Position numbers and translations under genes: made by a program. Positions 12,163 to 24,944 of a DNA stretch of 64,000 bases are shown here, piece by piece (position 1 is the first letter of the stretch; every line of letters starts with the position of its first letter). The notes under the pieces are model-generated. The model was not told the origin of the DNA. It worked only from the letters and a program-made list of their open reading frames with translations, and ran no database searches. The stretch is from a candidate division FCPU426 bacterium (lineage in GTDB: Bacteria; Oederibacteriota; Muellerivitia; Muellerivitales; Muellerivitaceae). Where the stretch lies: positions 1-64,000 of the forward strand of contig JASHNQ010000097.1 of assembly GCA_030041545.1 (NCBI GenBank), read 5' to 3'.

Positions 12163-14406
12163 ATGCTCGACAACAACGGCCAAATCCAACAGGCTTCCGT
12201 GGCGGTGCGCGAATTGCGCGTGGCCCTTTCCAATTTCTTCCTTTATTCCGCCGACAACGCCATGGTGAGGCAGTCCCTGGACCGGTTCTTGGCGGCCCTT
12301 TCCCTGCTCTTTGAGGGCTTGCCTTCGGTGTCCTTGGGGGAATCCGAGGGGCGCCTGGTGGTGGAAGGTTCGCCCCTGGACGAGCGCCTCACCGGTTCCA
12401 CCAACATGATCAAGGACCTTTTCCTGACCCACAAGATCCACACCCTCACCTTCGTCCAGGGCGTGGGGATTTCCGAGGTCCAGGCCCTGTTCTCGCTCTT
12501 GAAGCCCAAGGCCCTTCCCAGCGGCCTTTCCCTGTCCCAGGCCCTGGTCCAGCATTCCCTGGAGCATATCCGCGTGAACGAGAAGGTCTTCGTGGCCCTC
12601 TCCGAGGGCGAGGTGGTGGTGCCTTCGGACCAGGCCCCGGCTGGGCCCGGGGGGGAGCAGAACCTCCAGGAAGCCCTGGAAGCCCTCCAATATTTCCTCC
12701 AGATTTTTAGCCGCGTCCGGCCCGACGCCAACAAACAGGAGGTGGCCCGGCGCCTGGTGGAAAACATGGGCGCCTGGCTGGAGGTGGAAGGGAGCGCCCA
12801 AGGAGAGGGCGGGGGCACGGGGGGAAGCGCCGGACCGTCCGTCCATGCCCAGCCCTGGCAGGAGCTGATGGGAGGTTTCCTGTCCTTGAAGGGCGCCCTG
12901 TCCTCGTTGAAAACGCCCTCCCAATTGAGCGACGCGCGGGTGAGCATGGACGACCTCTTGAGGAAATTGGTGCTCTTGGGCGAAAACATGGGCCTGTCCT
13001 CGCAAGAATTCCCGGGGGATCCGGCGGCCCCTTCCTCCCCCGGAACTTCCGCCCCGGAGGAGCCTGTCCCCGCCGAACAAGGCTCCCTCTTTGAAACCGA
13101 CCCCGTGCGCCTGGCCGTGGAAAAGGGGGATTGGGACGCCCTCCTGGCCCCGGACCTGGAGGAAAAAGTCCATGGCCAGGCGGACTGGTTCCAAGAACCG
13201 GACCAGGCGGGGGTCCTGGAATCCTTCTGGGAAAAATTGTGGGAAAAAATTTTCTCCGCGGATGAGCAAACCCAGGCCCTGGCCTTGCGCCACCTGACCC
13301 ACCTGGCCTGGAACCGCCTCCCGCGGCCGCTGCAGCTGGAGGGCCTGCGCAACCTTTGCCGCCTCCTGAAGGAGATCCGGCGACCGGCCAATTACCCGCT
13401 GGCCCTCACCCTTTGCCAGGACTGGATACCCCAGGAACTGGCCTCCCCCGATTGGACCGAACTTTTGGAAATGACGCGCCTTTTGATGAGGGCCGCCGAG
13501 CAAACCCCGCCCCGTTTCGAAAAACAAAACCAGTCCGCGCGCGTGGCCCTGGACACGGTCTTTTGCGAGCCCATCCTGGAATCGCTGCTTTCCCGGTACC
13601 CTTCCGGGGGCGGCAAGGGCGAAAACACCCGTCAGCTTTTCACGCGATTGGGGCGCCGCGCCAATCCCTTCCTTTTCCAAAAAATCGAGAGAGAACCCAT
13701 CGGAAGCCCCGACTGGGGCAAAGCCGTCGAGCTGTTGGAGGTTCTGCAAAAGGCCGATCTTCACGTTTATGAAACCTGGCTGGATTGGCCCGAAAAGCGG
13801 CCCCAACTGGAGAAATTCCTGGACATCTTTACCGCCGTCCCGCCTTCCGGCGAGCTGGAGGATTATTTCGAGCGCCACTGGAACACCTTCGGCCCGGGCG
13901 CCCAGGCGAAAATTTTGGCTGCGGCGCGGCAGTGGAAAAAACAGGGGTTCAGGCCCTTCCTGGCGCGGCTGCTGGAAAAGCCCGACGCCCCTATCGCCTT
14001 GGACGCCCTGGAAACCCTGACGGCCGTGGGGCTGGACGGCGACGGGGAAGCCATCATCCAGGCGGTGAAAAACTATCCCCCCCACGGGAAGGACAAGGAG
14101 AAATTCTGGATCAAGGCTTGCGAGGCGCTGGGCGGCCTGGCCGGCGCACCCGCCGCGGACGCCCTCATGGAATGGGCCGGAAAGTACCACTTCATGGAGC
14201 ACAAGAAAGGGCGCAGCTTGGAGGTGCGGCGCGGGGCGGTGAGGGCCCTGGGCCGCATCCGGTCCAAAACGGCGCGCGATTTCCTGGCCGCGCTGAAAGG
14301 GGATGAAAAAGAGCTGAAGGGTGACGTGGAAGAGTCATTGAAGGCCGTGGAGGCCCTGCTGTCGGCCCCGCCCGGGGAACCCCTACCCCCCAAAGAAGGT
14401 CCTTGA
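12163..14406 (+). CDS. Large helical-repeat (HEAT-like) protein of unknown function
   Basis: A 747-residue cytoplasmic protein without signal peptide or membrane helices. Residues 1-210 are alpha-helical. A low-complexity Gly/Ser/Pro linker occurs near 210-225 and another near 290-310. The C-terminal 450 residues are repeated amphipathic helices ending in HEAT-like units (ACEALGGLAGAPAADALMEW; RRGAVRALGRI). Such scaffolds normally bind proteins. I do not recognise the family. It is divergent from the glycosyltransferase gene and ends at a strong terminator. Confidence 0.7.
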   Translation: MLDNNGQIQQASVAVRELRVALSNFFLYSADNAMVRQSLDRFLAALSLLFEGLPSVSLGESEGRLVVEGSPLDERLTGSTNMIKDLFLTHKIHTLTFVQGVGISEVQALFSLLKPKALPSGLSLSQALVQHSLEHIRVNEKVFVALSEGEVVVPSDQAPAGPGGEQNLQEALEALQYFLQIFSRVRPDANKQEVARRLVENMGAWLEVEGSAQGEGGGTGGSAGPSVHAQPWQELMGGFLSLKGALSSLKTPSQLSDARVSMDDLLRKLVLLGENMGLSSQEFPGDPAAPSSPGTSAPEEPVPAEQGSLFETDPVRLAVEKGDWDALLAPDLEEKVHGQADWFQEPDQAGVLESFWEKLWEKIFSADEQTQALALRHLTHLAWNRLPRPLQLEGLRNLCRLLKEIRRPANYPLALTLCQDWIPQELASPDWTELLEMTRLLMRAAEQTPPRFEKQNQSARVALDTVFCEPILESLLSRYPSGGGKGENTRQLFTRLGRRANPFLFQKIEREPIGSPDWGKAVELLEVLQKADLHVYETWLDWPEKRPQLEKFLDIFTAVPPSGELEDYFERHWNTFGPGAQAKILAAARQWKKQGFRPFLARLLEKPDAPIALDALETLTAVGLDGDGEAIIQAVKNYPPHGKDKEKFWIKACEALGGLAGAPAADALMEWAGKYHFMEHKKGRSLEVRRGAVRALGRIRSKTARDFLAALKGDEKELKGDVEESLKAVEALLSAPPGEPLPPKEGP

Positions 14407-17962: not shown

Positions 17963-18385
17963 TCACAAAAATGGATTTTGGATGGTAAGACCGGCAACCC
18001 GCTGGCGGTGGCCGAGGTCTTCCGTGTAAAGGGTCTTGCAGCCGGCTTCCAGGGCCGAGGCCAAAATCAGGGCGTCATAGAATGAAAAACCCGTTTCTTC
18101 CTTGAGTTCCAAGGCCCTTTGGTAAAGCTTGAAGGTCGGGAGGGCCCGGCAGAGCGGCGCCAAAACCAGGTCCAGGTAGGAGCGGGCTTCCAAGGCCGAA
18201 AACGGTTTTTCGAATTTTCTCAAGGCGACATTGAGGAATTCCTGGACCACTTGGTAGCTGACCAAGCCGTTGTTGTCCAAGAGGGCCTTTTCAATCAGGG
18301 CCTGGGCTGTTTTTTGCTTGGAGGGATGTCGGGCGTCGAAGGAATAAACGAAAATATTCGTGTCCAGGAAATAACTACCGCTCAT
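17963..18385 (-). CDS. vapC: VapC-type PIN-domain toxin (module 2)
   Basis: A 140-residue PIN-domain protein with Asp8 (YFLDTNIFVYSFD), Glu49 (VVQEFLNV), Asp104 (SFYDALILASA) and Asp123 (YTEDLG), the complete acidic set for metal-dependent RNase activity. Its start overlaps the antitoxin gene by 11 bp. Confidence 0.9.
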   Translation of the reverse strand: MSGSYFLDTNIFVYSFDARHPSKQKTAQALIEKALLDNNGLVSYQVVQEFLNVALRKFEKPFSALEARSYLDLVLAPLCRALPTFKLYQRALELKEETGFSFYDALILASALEAGCKTLYTEDLGHRQRVAGLTIQNPFL

Positions 18386-18596
18386 TCATCTCGTCCCTGG
18401 AAAAAATCCGCCCGGGGCGGGCATGGCGTAACCGTTTCATTAACTCGCGGTACTCCCCCGATCGCTGTTCACCGCCGACATAACCGGCCATCCATTCGCG
18501 GAAGAGCTCATTAAGCGACTTGTGTTCCTCCAAGGCCCGACGGCGGGCCTTTTCCACCAGGGCTTCATCCGCGCTTAAAGTAATGTTTTTCAGCAT
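18375..18596 (-). CDS. Ribbon-helix-helix antitoxin (module 2)
   Basis: A 73-residue protein: MLKNITLSADEALVEKARRR then HKSLNELFREWMAGY, an RHH/CopG-like DNA-binding N-terminus with an Arg-rich acidic tail (GRIFSRDEMNER) that would bind the PIN toxin. A GGAGGGTTT ribosome site precedes the ATG. It is the upstream partner of the overlapping toxin gene. Confidence 0.85.
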   Translation of the reverse strand: MLKNITLSADEALVEKARRRALEEHKSLNELFREWMAGYVGGEQRSGEYRELMKRLRHARPGRIFSRDEMNER

Positions 18597-18613
18597 AAAC
18601 CCTCCTCAAGATA

Positions 18614-18637
18614 ACACGAAAAAAGTGTACACGAAAA
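18614..18637 (-). promoter_or_regulatory. Candidate operator of vapBC module 2
   Basis: Direct repeats ACACGAAAA at 18614-18622 and 18629-18637 surround the palindrome GTGTACAC (18625-18632), 18 bp upstream of the antitoxin start. Confidence 0.5.
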
Positions 18638-19019
18638 TATCATTGATTTCAAGGAACGTACGCGGCTTTCATTAATGGAAATCGGGGGGAAAGGGGTAGT
18701 TAATGATTCGGCAATGCCATTCGGCGGCGAAATCAAGCAATGGTTAAGGAAGAAGGGTGGAAATCGGGAATTCGGAATTCCTTTTCAGGACCAGATCCTG
18801 ATCGCCCAAAGAGTTCGAATTTACCTAAAATGTAATATGTGGCCCCTATGTTTCCCTCGGATTTCTTCGGCCATTTGCAGATTTTGATAACCGTTTAAGT
18901 TCTTGCAGAATAGGCAACTCCTTTTATCTGTTATCTCTCCCAATCGAATCTGGTTAACCTCACGATTGATCACCTTTCAGATTGCAATATTCAAGACCTG
19001 ACCTTACTTTCTCTTCACA
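18638..19019. other. Gene-free stretch with insertion-element footprints
   Basis: I see no credible gene. Near 18990-19010 the words CAATATTCAAGACCTGACC appear, resembling ends of transposase-associated repeats, followed by the left copy of the 32-bp inverted repeat. The sequence is lower in GC than the flanking core genes. Confidence 0.4.
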
Positions 19020-19051
19020 AAGTATATTCTAAAGGCCTGACCCCTTTGTTT
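19020..19051 (+). repeat. Left copy of the 32-bp inverted repeat bounding the patatin island
   Basis: Identical in reverse complement to 24539-24570 over all 32 bases; it begins AAGTATATTCTAAAGGCCTG. Confidence 0.85.
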
Positions 19052-19133
19052 GAACACCTCCTTGGAGAAGATGTTCAAGAGTATAATTTGCACACCGTCA
19101 ACGGCTCGTGCACGATGATCTGACGTTTATCAA

Positions 19134-22100
19134 CTAATGTCTTATGGAAATGCCTTTTTTCCATTCGTGCTTAATTTGCGTGACTGCCTCCTGCCCGATA
19201 TGGTGCCCCAAGCGGCGATAAGCCTCAAATTGACCTTCGCTGAAAAATTGGTCGGCGGTGGATTCATGGGGGAAATTTGAGTATTCGGCGGAGTAATTAA
19301 GGATGTCCTGGTCGGTGAGCTTGGGAAGGGAGCTTTTTACGTAAACAAGGATTCCGGTTTCATTATTTTTTCGGCCATAATGAATAGTGCCCACTCGTAC
19401 ACTTTGGCGACAAATTCCATTTTTATTTCTTTTGATCGGATTCACGTTGATATCCACATCAATGCCCATGTCCATTTTGGCGTATCGAATCACCCTCGCC
19501 AGGCCGTCGAACGTGTAATTGGGATCGTATTCGGCGTCGCAGGCCACGATCAACTTGGCATGTCGTCTGAGCAATTCATAAACCCCGAGGTTCTCGATAT
19601 GGCCCCCATCACTCAGGTTGATATAAGAACTGGTTTCATCTATAACCCTGAACATTTCCTTTAAAAGGAACCAAAAACCAACCTTGGCCATACGAGGATT
19701 TATCTGCTTCATCAATCCGCGCCATTTGCCGTCCTGGCAATGGACGTTCGGCAGCCAGTACCCCAGGCGGACATTCAAGGCGCACAAAAAGGGCGTTATG
19801 AAAGGGGGCGTCTGGGTGCCCATGTTGGGGGAAACCGCCGCCCCGGAAATAGCCATGGCCGTTCCCAGGTTTAAATCCGGGTCAAGTTGTTCGAGATCAT
19901 CGGTTTTGACGAAGCCCACATAGGGCCCCCCGCAGTAAAGCTTAGAAAAGAAGAAAAAGCTGCCCTTCCTGCCGTTCAAATCGAAGGACTTGCTGGAATG
20001 GCTGGCCGGGAGATTGACTGTGGCATTTATCAAGTGGTAGGGGCCAGGGTCATTTCCCTTTGGCGCTTGGTTGAGTTCTGAAAGGAGTTGTCCATCGTTG
20101 GATTCAACCTCATTTTTCCATATAAAAAGATACGCCGCCGACAACTGGTCCCGGTAAATCTTATGAAGAGAGGAACTGTTCACGTCCACTATTAGGAATA
20201 CTCCGTAAAACAAGAGCCACGCGAACATCATCAGCTCAAGTGCGTATCCCCAATTGGTTCCCAAATAAAACAAGGGAGTCTGGCTGATTCCCTGGGCGAG
20301 GGGGTCAAAGGGCTTTAGCGCGAACTGCAAAAAAATTCCCGCGAGGGTCCAGGAGGCGATGGCCAAAAATGCCAACAAACCTATTTTCCAATTTTCCCCA
20401 CTTTCGGCCTTGGAATCGGTTTTACCCTTTTCCACCGCTTTATCCTCCTCGCCCGCGAACAATTCCTTCGCGGCGGAGGAGGTTAACCAGATCGCCATGA
20501 CCACTAGGCCGCCGGAGGTGATTAAACTAGCCCCGTAACGGGGCGCGTTCGGAAAAAGCAAGTTTGAATATTGTGTGGCGGTCAAAAAGAGGACCCCCAC
20601 GATGGAAAAACCCACCCCCCAAGGGGTTGAACGCCTCTCGTCAAGCACGGCAATGATCCCGGACCTCAAGAAAAGAACGCTAGCTACCAGCCCCACCAAA
20701 AGAACAAAAAAATATATCCAAGTTTCCCTCGACAAGACTTCGGTGAAAAAAAACAGGAAATTGCATGAGATCGTGACGACGAAAGCGGAGACCAGCAGGA
20801 ACGATGCGAAGCGCACTTGGTCCGAAAGAAAATTAACCCCAGCCGAATACACAAAAAACAAAAGGAAGCACAGGCCCACCCCGATTAACGTCACCGGCAT
20901 CCCGGGGATAAACCCATAGCCAAGCAAGACACCCTTGGAAAATTGGGAAAAATTGTAAAAACCGGAAACCACGCTCTCCGGGTGGTCCGTGGCGGCCGGG
21001 TGATTCATCCAAAAATGGAAAAACCAGGCGCAAAGTGGAAAGATCATGATTCCGGAAAATAACGCGTTAAGCACGGAAACAATGCGGGGAAAGACCCGCT
21101 TCAACCAACCTAAAAATCCATCCGACGAATCCTTTTTTCGCTTTTTCCAATTACCGTTTAAAACAAACGCCGAGTTGAGGCATGCGGCAATAAACCACCC
21201 CCAAATGACCCATATGATGTAATCGGAGGCGGCTAGAACGTCCGCGAATTTCCCAATGGCGTTTAAAAAATCAAGGAAAGGCTCCTGGATCTGGGTCAGG
21301 CAGGTTTTCCCGTCTTGGTTCAGGCACAGCCAAGCGCAAAAATCCAAAAAGATGATAAAGGTGGTTAAAAAGGGAATGACGCCCAAGGCAGCCATACTGG
21401 CCGTTTTCGCCCAACCGGCCTTTCCGGAGGATTGATGCAACTTATAGACGATCGCGAGGGGGGAGAAGCCCAGTAGGGGTTTAAGCCAAAAAGGGCCTGA
21501 GCTTAAAATCCAGGCTGCGGCATAAGGCACCGCATCGGTAATGCCCGTCGGCTTGTGGGTTTGGACGTAAGTTGAAAGCATGGGGATCAACTGGCCGTAA
21601 CCCAGTACGCAAAGGGCTAAAACTTCAAGGGCGATACCCACAAAACAAAGGGCGAAAACAATTTCCAAGAAAACTTTGATGAAAATGGGATATTGTAGCG
21701 GGGATTTGACTTCATCTCCGGGAGTTCTATTTTTCTGCCATTGGAGGAAATGAGGTTCCAGGGGTTTCCAAATAAGGGCGGTTAAAACCAGGATCAAAAA
21801 ACCCCTCGGAATCAAGTTTAAAAAATCCGTGATGGGTTTCTTCGTATCGTAAAATCCATTAATCTTCTCGCCGAAAAGCAAATAAATCAAAAGAGCGAGG
21901 AACAGGCTCCACGGCAGGAACAACAGGAGGTTGATGATCCATCCCCTAACGAGGAACGAGCCCATGCGGATGGCCGAGAAGAAATTTGGCGGGGAAAGGT
22001 ATTTGGCCGAGACGTTCCTTAAAAAGCCAAGGACCTTGTTCTCCCCTTGGCCGTCGTTGGATTTGAGGGGAAAGGTATTATCCCCGGGGGCGGAAGGGAT

Positions 22101-22727
22101 GCCCTCCTGTTCCGCAGAATGGGACAGTGAACTGACGCAGGAGCCGATGTATCCACCACCTGAAACCGTGGAAAGATAGTCAAAGTCTTTCAACATGTCC
22201 CCATCGGCCAGAGCCTGAAGCACCCCCAAATTAAAGGTGGCGCTTCGCACTCCCCCGCCCGATAAGGCCAAGCCGGTCAGGTTATAGTTCGCCGATGGAG
22301 GCAGCGGGGATTTCTTCGGTTTTTTCTCAATATCAAATAATTTTCTCAAGTACTGGACAAAGTTTTCACCAAAAGACAGTTTCTCTTCGGATTCGGTTTC
22401 CGGATTTATTTCCGACCAAATTCTTAACTCTACTGACATTGAATCCGTTTCCTCAATCAAACCAAATCGTTTGAAATTTTTCTTTCGAAAAAATTCCCGC
22501 CTTTTATTAATTTCCTGTAATTCGACTGGAAATACTTCCGACGCGAAATGATTCAACTTTTCTTTTGCCTGGAGGAACGAATTAATCAAATTGTTTTTAA
22601 CATTTTTCTTGTTTCCTTCCTGTCTTTTATTTCTTTTATTAATTTTCACCCGTTCGGCGGGAAAAACTTTCGATTTAAAAGTATCCTCCAACCCAGGACG
22701 CTTTATCTTTTTTTTCACAAATTTCAC
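19134..22727 (-). CDS. Giant membrane patatin-like phospholipase
   Basis: A 1197-residue protein. The N-terminal 90 residues are highly basic (Lys/Arg-rich). A patatin fold starts at about 150: oxyanion loop TGLALSGGGVRSATF, nucleophile Ser189 in STVSGGGYIG, and a late SDGGH motif (near 1035) supplying the dyad Asp. Between nucleophile and Asp about 850 residues intervene, with roughly a dozen hydrophobic helices, so the catalytic domain is split by a membrane module. The GTG at 22727 is adjacent to AAGGGG; a GTG at 22718 has better spacing. GC is visibly lower than in neighbouring core genes. Role in lipid turnover or defence is inference. Confidence 0.85.
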   Translation of the reverse strand: MKFVKKKIKRPGLEDTFKSKVFPAERVKINKRNKRQEGNKKNVKNNLINSFLQAKEKLNHFASEVFPVELQEINKRREFFRKKNFKRFGLIEETDSMSVELRIWSEINPETESEEKLSFGENFVQYLRKLFDIEKKPKKSPLPPSANYNLTGLALSGGGVRSATFNLGVLQALADGDMLKDFDYLSTVSGGGYIGSCVSSLSHSAEQEGIPSAPGDNTFPLKSNDGQGENKVLGFLRNVSAKYLSPPNFFSAIRMGSFLVRGWIINLLLFLPWSLFLALLIYLLFGEKINGFYDTKKPITDFLNLIPRGFLILVLTALIWKPLEPHFLQWQKNRTPGDEVKSPLQYPIFIKVFLEIVFALCFVGIALEVLALCVLGYGQLIPMLSTYVQTHKPTGITDAVPYAAAWILSSGPFWLKPLLGFSPLAIVYKLHQSSGKAGWAKTASMAALGVIPFLTTFIIFLDFCAWLCLNQDGKTCLTQIQEPFLDFLNAIGKFADVLAASDYIIWVIWGWFIAACLNSAFVLNGNWKKRKKDSSDGFLGWLKRVFPRIVSVLNALFSGIMIFPLCAWFFHFWMNHPAATDHPESVVSGFYNFSQFSKGVLLGYGFIPGMPVTLIGVGLCFLLFFVYSAGVNFLSDQVRFASFLLVSAFVVTISCNFLFFFTEVLSRETWIYFFVLLVGLVASVLFLRSGIIAVLDERRSTPWGVGFSIVGVLFLTATQYSNLLFPNAPRYGASLITSGGLVVMAIWLTSSAAKELFAGEEDKAVEKGKTDSKAESGENWKIGLLAFLAIASWTLAGIFLQFALKPFDPLAQGISQTPLFYLGTNWGYALELMMFAWLLFYGVFLIVDVNSSSLHKIYRDQLSAAYLFIWKNEVESNDGQLLSELNQAPKGNDPGPYHLINATVNLPASHSSKSFDLNGRKGSFFFFSKLYCGGPYVGFVKTDDLEQLDPDLNLGTAMAISGAAVSPNMGTQTPPFITPFLCALNVRLGYWLPNVHCQDGKWRGLMKQINPRMAKVGFWFLLKEMFRVIDETSSYINLSDGGHIENLGVYELLRRHAKLIVACDAEYDPNYTFDGLARVIRYAKMDMGIDVDINVNPIKRNKNGICRQSVRVGTIHYGRKNNETGILVYVKSSLPKLTDQDILNYSAEYSNFPHESTADQFFSEGQFEAYRRLGHHIGQEAVTQIKHEWKKGISIRH

Positions 22728-22793
22728 CCCTTCTTTTAGCTTGTCGACTTATGCGGACTTTTTTAGTAAAAAAAATTGGCGCCCGTTCCACTT

Positions 22794-24422
22794 CTAATTG
22801 GTTCCGGGCGTTTCTCCTGGCGTTAGGGAAGGCGTTGTAGTCGGTGTTGGGGTTGGAGTTGCTGGGTAAGGACTTCCATTGGGGAATAACGCTCCAACCA
22901 AAGTGCTAACATCCTGGGAATAACCTATCCGGACAGACCAATTGTCCAGTTGATTAAGGGGATTTCGATGTCCAAGCCAGCCTTGAATAAAAGCCAGTTC
23001 ATGATCATCGCCAGTAACGTCAAACGTGAGGAAATGAAGGGCGTTGTTTTGGTCGAGTGGATAATGGAATTCCAACTTCACTAGTGCCGTGTCGTGAAGG
23101 CCGTAGTCCGCAAATCCATTCATTGAATTCACTGTAGCCGGGCCATTGCTCAATGCCATGCCAGGATCAAGGATCACATTCGGTGCATCGGTCCAGGCAA
23201 AGGGATAAAGAGCCGCTAAAATTTCGATTCGGTTAGCCTGATTCGCGATAGGAATGCCAAAATCCGATTCCAAACCGAACCCGTAATAATTGATGATTTG
23301 GGAAGATAAATTGTCGGTGGATCCACCGTAAATCCCTCCGATGGCCCAGTCCGTATCAAAGCCAGGATCATGGAAAGTCCACGAAAGCGCGTCAATCGTA
23401 ATTTCGCCAAAGAGGTTCCCAGAACCGACCACCGCGCTGGCGGTCGAGTTAGATGAAGCGCTGCTTAAACCAAATTCAACTTCCGAGATTTTGAGGAACC
23501 GGCCATGGACAGGCCAACCCCAAAATATAAACGGCAAATCAAAACCCAAATCATGGATTTGTCCACCTGTCCATGAATAGCGGTCACGGAAAACCGGATC
23601 AAAGAAAAAGATGCCTTGGGTGTTCGACGCCTTGCTGATAGTCATGTTGGTTTGCGTTACAGCTCCGGTTGTCACCAAACTAGAATTGATTTGATAGGGG
23701 TTGATCAATGCCGAACCAACGTTCAAGTAGAAATTTTTATTGAAAGAAGTTGCGGTGGGGGTGGGCGTCTCACCGGTCGTGCTGCTGGATAAACTTGGAA
23801 CAATAGCCTGGGATACAACAAAAGAGGCCAAAGCGTTAATGATGGTAACGTTGCCATTGGCGGGAATTGGTAGAGTAATCGGGCCACTTAAGCTGACGAG
23901 ATTTTCTGCACCTGAAGAAGAGCCGGCAGTCCCCTGGGAAGTAGAAGTTGAAATCGGCGTTCCAGAAGGGCTGGCTGTGGGCGTGGTCGTTGCCTTACTC
24001 GTTTTAGCGGCAAGGGTTTTGCTTGGAGTAGGTTTGGCGAGTATTGAAGTTATATCTCCTGGGGGAATAATTACCTCGGTCACGGGTAAACTCACCTCCT
24101 GACCTGAACTTCCATAGGTGATCGTGGACGGTCCGCTTAGGGTTTGAGGTTTTGAATTTGTCGTGGGGGACGGGGTGGGTGTTGCGGTGGGTTCTCCGGA
24201 CGGGTCGCTTGTCTTGGCTAACGGTTGTGCTGTTGGGGTAGGGGTTTCCGTTTTCTTTTTTTTCTTTGGCTTGATCGAAGGGGTTGAAACAGCAGAAGGA
24301 GTGCTAGACTGGGAAACATCAGATGTGCTTGATCCCGCTGTTTGGGCTAAGACCCCGTTTGACGCAGTTAAAATCGAAATGCAAACTGTCGAAAGTGAGA
24401 CAAGAAACCGATTCATGCGCAT
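22794..24422 (-). CDS. Secreted Thr/Pro-rich protein with C-terminal beta-rich domain
   Basis: A 542-residue protein with a signal peptide (about 1-27, ending GVLAQ), a long Ser/Thr/Pro and Lys stretch (about 28-230) and a beta-rich domain (about 235-515) with amphipathic strands (WAIGGIYGG, YYGFGLESDFG, FHYPLDQNNALHFLTFDVTG) suggesting a barrel or surface domain; it ends in another TPTPT tail. An ATG at 24416 is better spaced from the GGGGGG than that at 24422. It lies 66 bp upstream of the patatin gene, probably one transcript. No known family. Confidence 0.65.
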   Translation of the reverse strand: MRMNRFLVSLSTVCISILTASNGVLAQTAGSSTSDVSQSSTPSAVSTPSIKPKKKKKTETPTPTAQPLAKTSDPSGEPTATPTPSPTTNSKPQTLSGPSTITYGSSGQEVSLPVTEVIIPPGDITSILAKPTPSKTLAAKTSKATTTPTASPSGTPISTSTSQGTAGSSSGAENLVSLSGPITLPIPANGNVTIINALASFVVSQAIVPSLSSSTTGETPTPTATSFNKNFYLNVGSALINPYQINSSLVTTGAVTQTNMTISKASNTQGIFFFDPVFRDRYSWTGGQIHDLGFDLPFIFWGWPVHGRFLKISEVEFGLSSASSNSTASAVVGSGNLFGEITIDALSWTFHDPGFDTDWAIGGIYGGSTDNLSSQIINYYGFGLESDFGIPIANQANRIEILAALYPFAWTDAPNVILDPGMALSNGPATVNSMNGFADYGLHDTALVKLEFHYPLDQNNALHFLTFDVTGDDHELAFIQGWLGHRNPLNQLDNWSVRIGYSQDVSTLVGALFPNGSPYPATPTPTPTTTPSLTPGETPGTN

Positions 24423-24457
24423 CCCCCCAAATTGAATTTCCCAAAACAGCTTATGTC

Positions 24458-24486
24458 CTTATACGGTTGTGCCATTTATCGGTCAA
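24458..24486 (-). promoter_or_regulatory. Promoter of the secreted protein-patatin operon
   Basis: On the minus strand TTGACC (24486-24481) and TATAAG (24463-24458) with 17-bp spacing, about 35 bp upstream of the start codon. Confidence 0.7.
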
Positions 24487-24538
24487 TAATAATTTTGTCA
24501 ATTTTAATAAGTGCATAAATAGTGGCTGGTTTAAAAAT

Positions 24539-24570
24539 AAACAAAGGGGTCAGGCCTTTAGAATATACTT
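24539..24570 (-). repeat. Right copy of the 32-bp inverted repeat bounding the patatin island
   Basis: Exact reverse complement of 19020-19051. On the minus strand it contains a stop codon ending a coding-like remnant (KYILKA-stop). Confidence 0.85.
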
Positions 24571-24720
24571 AAGGACCTGTTGGGCGAATGGCTTGTCCTC
24601 CACCATCCGCCTTTTGGCGATCATCCAGAGGTGACCGACAGCCCCTAAACTGGCCCCCATCCTTCTCCCAATTCCCTTATCTGTTTTTCTAAAATTGATT
24701 TAACAAATCCTGAGCCCTTA
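24553..24720 (-). pseudogene. Possible transposase-gene tail remnant
   Basis: The minus strand reads GHLWMIAKRRMVEDKPFAQQ followed by VLKYILKA and a stop, preceded in another frame by FVKSILEKQIRELGEGWGPV. Amino-acid use looks coding, but there is a frameshift and no start. Its position at an inverted-repeat end suggests an insertion-element remnant; I cannot name the family. The rest of the 24423-24944 gap shows no gene. Confidence 0.4.
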
Positions 24721-24944
24721 TATCGGTTAACCAATTTCCCTGTCAACGAATTATTTTAAAAATGATATAAGTGCACATATAGTGACCTATTATTGTCTTA
24801 ACCCTTTGTTAGACTAAAAGTTGGCATGATATTTAATGTTAAAACTGTCATTTGAGATTGGAGTAAAGGCGCTTTTGAAGAAGGGCGTATCAAAACTATG
24901 GACCAGAGCGCTGAGTGCCTACCGCAACAAAAGGGCAGCGGTGT

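Follow-up and report, generated by a model that had tools for sequence, protein, structure and literature searches.

Probable remnants of RAYT-like elements beside a compositionally foreign gene pair in a candidate division FCPU426 bacterium

The analysed window (64,000 nt of contig JASHNQ010000097.1 from a candidate division FCPU426 bacterium) contains two minus-strand genes located between the arms of a perfect 32-bp inverted repeat. The upstream gene encodes a 542-aa secreted protein, and the downstream gene, 66 bp away, encodes a 1197-aa membrane patatin. A PIN-domain (VapC-like) protein (PF01850) is encoded just left of this region (17963–18385, minus strand). The features of the locus are as follows.

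18981–19003, plus strand: end repeat ATTGCAATATTCAAGACCTGACC of a second dispersed element family, with 9 genome copies at up to 3 mismatches
19020–19051, plus strand: left 32-bp repeat, a solitary RAYT-like terminal repeat of the type located 5′ of the transposase gene, with the edge AAAGTATATT
19134–22727, minus strand: predicted 1197-aa multi-pass membrane patatin-like phospholipase (Pfam PF01734, alignments, structure model, fold match, hydropathy)
22769–22809, minus strand: terminator-like hairpin with a U8 run, overlapping the stop codon of the gene for the 542-aa protein (fold z -2.16)
22794–24422, minus strand: 542-aa orphan secreted protein with an N-terminal signal, a Ser/Thr/Pro-rich linker and a beta-rich C-terminal region
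24539–24570, minus strand: right 32-bp repeat, a terminal repeat including the stop codon of a RAYT gene
24550–24678, minus strand: relic of a RAYT (Y1_Tnp) gene, the last ~42 codons, with the remainder deleted (tblastn and DNA match)

Judged by its sequence, the 1197-aa protein belongs to a widespread family of multi-pass membrane patatins. The patatin core is split by about 12 predicted membrane segments, with 12 hydropathy peaks at residues 259–847. In an alignment of 39 members, S156-G159, R161, S189-G192 and D1040-G1042 are invariant; the conserved motifs read GGG.R / SGGG.RS, V-S189-GGG and D1040-GGH, and the conserved Ser189 and Asp1040 represent the putative catalytic dyad. The structure model is confident for the two catalytic halves and has low confidence for the helical middle. 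In the fold comparison, cytosolic phospholipase A2 (cPLA2) ranks first, followed by patatins, all with low TM-scores because the membrane part is unmatched. We hypothesize that the two halves bearing the dyad may meet across the inserted membrane domain, forming an enzyme predicted to cleave membrane lipids.

Members of this family (PF01734) are found in Rhizobium, Bradyrhizobium, Verrucomicrobiota and others under the name “patatin-like phospholipase family protein”. The window protein shares with them an N-terminal half containing GGG.R and SGGG, a variable hydrophobic middle, and a C-terminal half with DGG(H).(E/D)N and DQFFSE-type motifs. However, it is longer than most of them (690–1374 aa in the set), is about 27–36% identical to the others, and is placed alone on a long branch in the tree, so that no donor can be named. 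At least 572 loci encoding relatives were retrieved from a species-representative genome set with an alignment query, a single-protein query having found nothing. They are distributed among Pseudomonadota, Verrucomicrobiota, Acidobacteriota, Planctomycetota, Myxococcota and other phyla, and 43 plasmid records, mainly rhizobial, contain relatives as well. Among the 59 genomes searched, the patatin is present in the source genome alone and absent from the 58 others. A distant paralogue (C63:25400–28200, minus strand) is broken into three ORFs by an in-frame stop codon and a change of frame, and is either a pseudogene or the product of an assembly error.

The 542-aa protein possesses a signal-like N-terminus and a Ser/Thr/Pro-rich linker reaching about residue 225. 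The initial annotation, which described a secreted Thr/Pro-rich protein next to a giant patatin, was correct for both genes. Structure prediction from the single sequence is unreliable (pLDDT 33). Searches against Pfam, NCBIfam and PADLOC gave no match, and the 59 genomes contain only weak matches, confined to the N-terminal 140 residues. Relatives are missing near the 80 patatin-relative loci examined and from the plasmids and phages searched, which led us to reject a conserved operon. We consider this protein a lineage-specific secreted, probably envelope, protein.

The two genes had also been proposed to share one promoter and to form a candidate undescribed lipid-acting or defence-type unit. 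Their common strand and the 66-bp spacing would suit a functional, co-selected module, with the secreted protein controlling or delivering the patatin, and one patatin relative in Mesorhizobium is found among TIR-domain genes. However, the partner is an orphan encountered at 0 of the 80 patatin relatives, and the terminator-like hairpin at the stop codon of the upstream gene (missing from the list of a simple consensus scan) separates the two genes. Promoter-like sites do not exceed the frequency seen in shuffled sequence, and the patatin itself is part of a large known family. PADLOC returned no family at E up to 0.1 for the patatin, the 542-aa protein or the PIN protein, and a known anti-phage defence unit was rejected on this ground. 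Neither the common promoter nor the novel two-gene unit is thus retained, and we regard a functional module as most unlikely.

The patatin defence effectors CapV and CapE share the patatin/cPLA2 fold with the window protein, and both structures are weak matches to its model. However, the window patatin differs from them in its membrane-embedded architecture and has neither a PADLOC match nor a conserved partner gene. The Mesorhizobium relative is located on a plasmid (873–6775) and has three TIR-domain genes around it, a neighbourhood of interest with regard to defence.

The GC content of the island is 0.479, and only 0.7% of 600 sampled 5.5-kb segments of the same genome are at or below this value (mean 0.572, sd 0.029). 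The low GC initially reported is therefore genuine; its bounding by the repeats is not, since the low-GC tract continues past both of them (0.467 at 18386–19019 and 0.425 at 24571–24944).

The surroundings of the locus can be traced in two genomes of the same genus. One contig of G001 carries the left flanking HEAT-type gene (12163–14406, 73% identical), the right flanking kinase (67%) and gyrA; about 9.7 kb separate the flanks, with nothing detectable in common with the corresponding 11.5 kb in the window. This difference in content indicates that the interval is variable within the genus, in agreement with acquired DNA. G002 retains the left flanking gene (82%) and the next, outer-membrane-type gene, and its contig ends before the site. 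A FecR-type gene was unhelpful as a right-flank marker because it belongs to a multi-copy family. No precise empty site was found in these two relatives, and neither the source genome nor the 58 others contain a second copy of the 5.5-kb unit. The same gene pair at a repeat-free locus was not encountered either, as the pair occurs in none of the relatives. The pair probably entered this genus-variable locus by horizontal transfer, and the repeats give no indication of the route. The variable interval of G001 (7.8–17.5 kb) encodes a different large secreted protein of 968 aa with a Thr/Pro/Ser-rich N-terminal part, and given this protein the locus may repeatedly host envelope proteins.

The two 32-bp arms are 100% complementary over 32 nt and spaced by 5487 nt, in full accordance with the initial annotation. 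Shuffled sequence never yielded even the 24-bp core of the repeat with up to 3 mismatches, and the inverted repeat is therefore not due to chance. Genome-wide searches identified five further copies of the full-length 32-mer at up to 3 mismatches, 18 copies of a 25-mer at up to 3 mismatches (reversed control pattern, 0) and 31 copies of a 16-bp core at up to 2 mismatches; reversed control patterns in such searches gave 0–2 matches per strand. Among the 59 genomes compared, the family is essentially limited to the source genome, with one copy of the 25-mer in G001 and none in G002. The arms differ from each other at 0 of 32 positions, while the nearest other genomic copies differ by 3 and the other local pairs by 1–9. 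This identity points to a shared source of fairly recent date, which is slightly unexpected for two unrelated insertions.

The 32-mer is a terminal repeat of a REP-associated-tyrosine-transposase-like (RAYT, Y1_Tnp) element family, and the earlier reading of the repeats as insertion-element ends holds. Y1_Tnp transposase genes at C22, C49 and C85, intact at C22 and C49, are each enclosed by related repeats in inverted orientation, and a related repeat borders a fourth gene of this kind at C48. The three longest intact proteins (C22, C49 and C48) reach scores of 85.8–89.7 with the NF047646 model (REP_Tyr_transpos; curated cut-off 80). The transposases also exceed the Y1_Tnp cut-off, contain the HYH motif and end in a DnaA-C/sigma-like helix-turn-helix tail. 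Miniature derivatives consist of a repeat pair around 56–470 bp only, which in two cases include the 3′ end of the transposase gene. The repeats are mostly non-palindromic (mean fold z +0.43 over 27 copies), with a hairpin in few; canonical palindromic REPs were rejected by this folding, and we classify the repeats as RAYT-like terminal repeats.

RAYT elements and REPINs/BIMEs are the closest known systems for these repeats (PMC2817692, PMC3116915). The likeness includes an NF047646-matching Y1_Tnp transposase between two inverted repeats of a kind that also occurs scattered through the genome, short paired copies without the gene, and solitary decayed copies. However, the repeats described here are not individually palindromic, and their copy number is in the tens, not hundreds. 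The C-terminal region of the transposase differs by its DnaA-C/sigma-like helix-turn-helix, and the RAYT motif NP(L/V)(R/K)xG (PMC2817692) is replaced by NPVRAHM: the sequences read NPVRAHMV or NPVRARMV, lacking the terminal Gly. In addition, the window holds remnants only, facing the opposite way.

The right remnant contains part of a transposase gene. On the minus strand, positions 24678 to 24550 encode KGIGRRMGASLGAVGHLWMIAKRRMVEDKPFAQQVLKYILKA-stop, and over 40 residues this peptide shares 70% identity with the C-terminal end of the intact transposase at C22 (tblastn, E 6e-13); the DNA match is 79% over 138 bp. The coding-like end KYILKA-stop, noticed earlier in the repeat, is accordingly the genuine C-terminus of a decayed transposase, because a truncated RAYT gene has its 3′ end in the right repeat. 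No further transposase relic or second repeat was found to the right of 24678.

The AAAGTATATT edge of the left repeat matches, in direct reading, the 5′-side ends of intact elements. No transposase relic was found to the left of 19020; the left-hand body sequence is missing, which weakens the case for an origin of this repeat from a separate element. The end repeat of the second family lies about 17 bp further left, so that the left spacer is simply rich in elements. The second family includes two close pairs, both arranged (-)...(+), in the same order as the RAYT-like pairs. Close to the right repeat, the spacers contain two matching 21-mers (ATAAGTGCAYAWATAGTGRCY) as direct repeats, at 24507–24527 and 24767–24787; a wider repeat family was rejected here, as the genome contains only one further weak match.

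Nine other local pairs of the RAYT-like repeat, which are element ends or miniature derivatives (0.06–1.65 kb), are all arranged (-)...(+), with the CCCCTTTG end / CCCC outward. The window pair is reversed to (+)...(-), with the CCCCTTTG ends pointing into the gene pair and no transposase gene between them. The inward-facing CCCCTTTG ends place the genes outside the elements, between two remnants, rather than enclosed as cargo. The same reversed order is seen between adjacent copies at C95:2242(+)/3662(-). The island as cargo within one element is thus rejected by the orientation of its repeats, and the initial suggestion of mobilised cargo is not supported, on this point as well as on the missing second copy. 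In our judgement, the repeats are very probably remnants of RAYT-like elements beside a compositionally foreign gene pair, with co-movement unsupported.

An arrangement of the composite-transposon type, in which two direct RAYT copies moved the genes and their outer parts then decayed, would leave exactly the inner ends R(+) and L(-) around the genes. The unusual identity of the arms, the foreign composition of the genes and the restriction of the patatin to the source genome would agree with it. However, low GC runs 0.4–0.6 kb beyond each repeat, the expected outer element parts are missing on both sides, the unit has no second copy, and all other pairs of the family enclose a transposase or short remnants only. 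RAYTs are not known to carry cargo (PMC2817692, PMC3116915), and we give this arrangement a slim chance. Joint mobilisation of the 5.5-kb two-gene cargo by two RAYT-like copies is highly improbable; if true, it would mean that RAYT elements are able to form composite transposons.

Another way to obtain the R(+)-genes-L(-) order with near-identical ends is integration of a circular or duplicated segment, carrying the genes and one element, by homologous recombination within an element, splitting its halves around the genes. Such an event should leave hybrid full elements on both sides, but no relic or second repeat is present beyond 19020 or 24678, and we consider it quite unlikely.

Under the preferred reading of the repeats as element remnants, a small RAYT-like element would have inserted twice, separately, in the intergenic DNA flanking the gene pair (or left decayed copies there). 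The right remnant would retain the element 3′ end with the last ~42 transposase codons, and the left one the terminal repeat only. By analogy with the family, these elements may spread via a Y1/HUH tyrosine transposase acting on the terminal inverted repeats, a process that would leave transposase-less miniature copies. We infer both this decay history and lipid hydrolysis by the patatin. Taken as a whole, the finding is ordinary: remnants of elements lie next to a variable gene pair of foreign appearance. It calls for caution, as a perfect inverted repeat around unusual genes mimics a mobile island, and the orientation and genome-wide copies of the repeat reveal spacer debris. It also documents, in a little-studied lineage, a RAYT-like family whose ends are non-palindromic, which has miniature derivatives and whose transposase carries a DnaA-C-like helix-turn-helix tail.

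Two further observations concern this family in the assembly. Contigs C14, C30 (at its end), C51, C52, C67, C84 and C91 stop inside Y1_Tnp genes; the assembly was therefore probably broken by transposase repeats, and the copy number is underestimated. At C49:170.2–171.3 kb, the terminal motif is found in tandem beside some element ends (TGACCCCTTTGTTTG twice and TGACCCCTATGCG twice), suggesting either insertion beside a pre-existing end or slippage.
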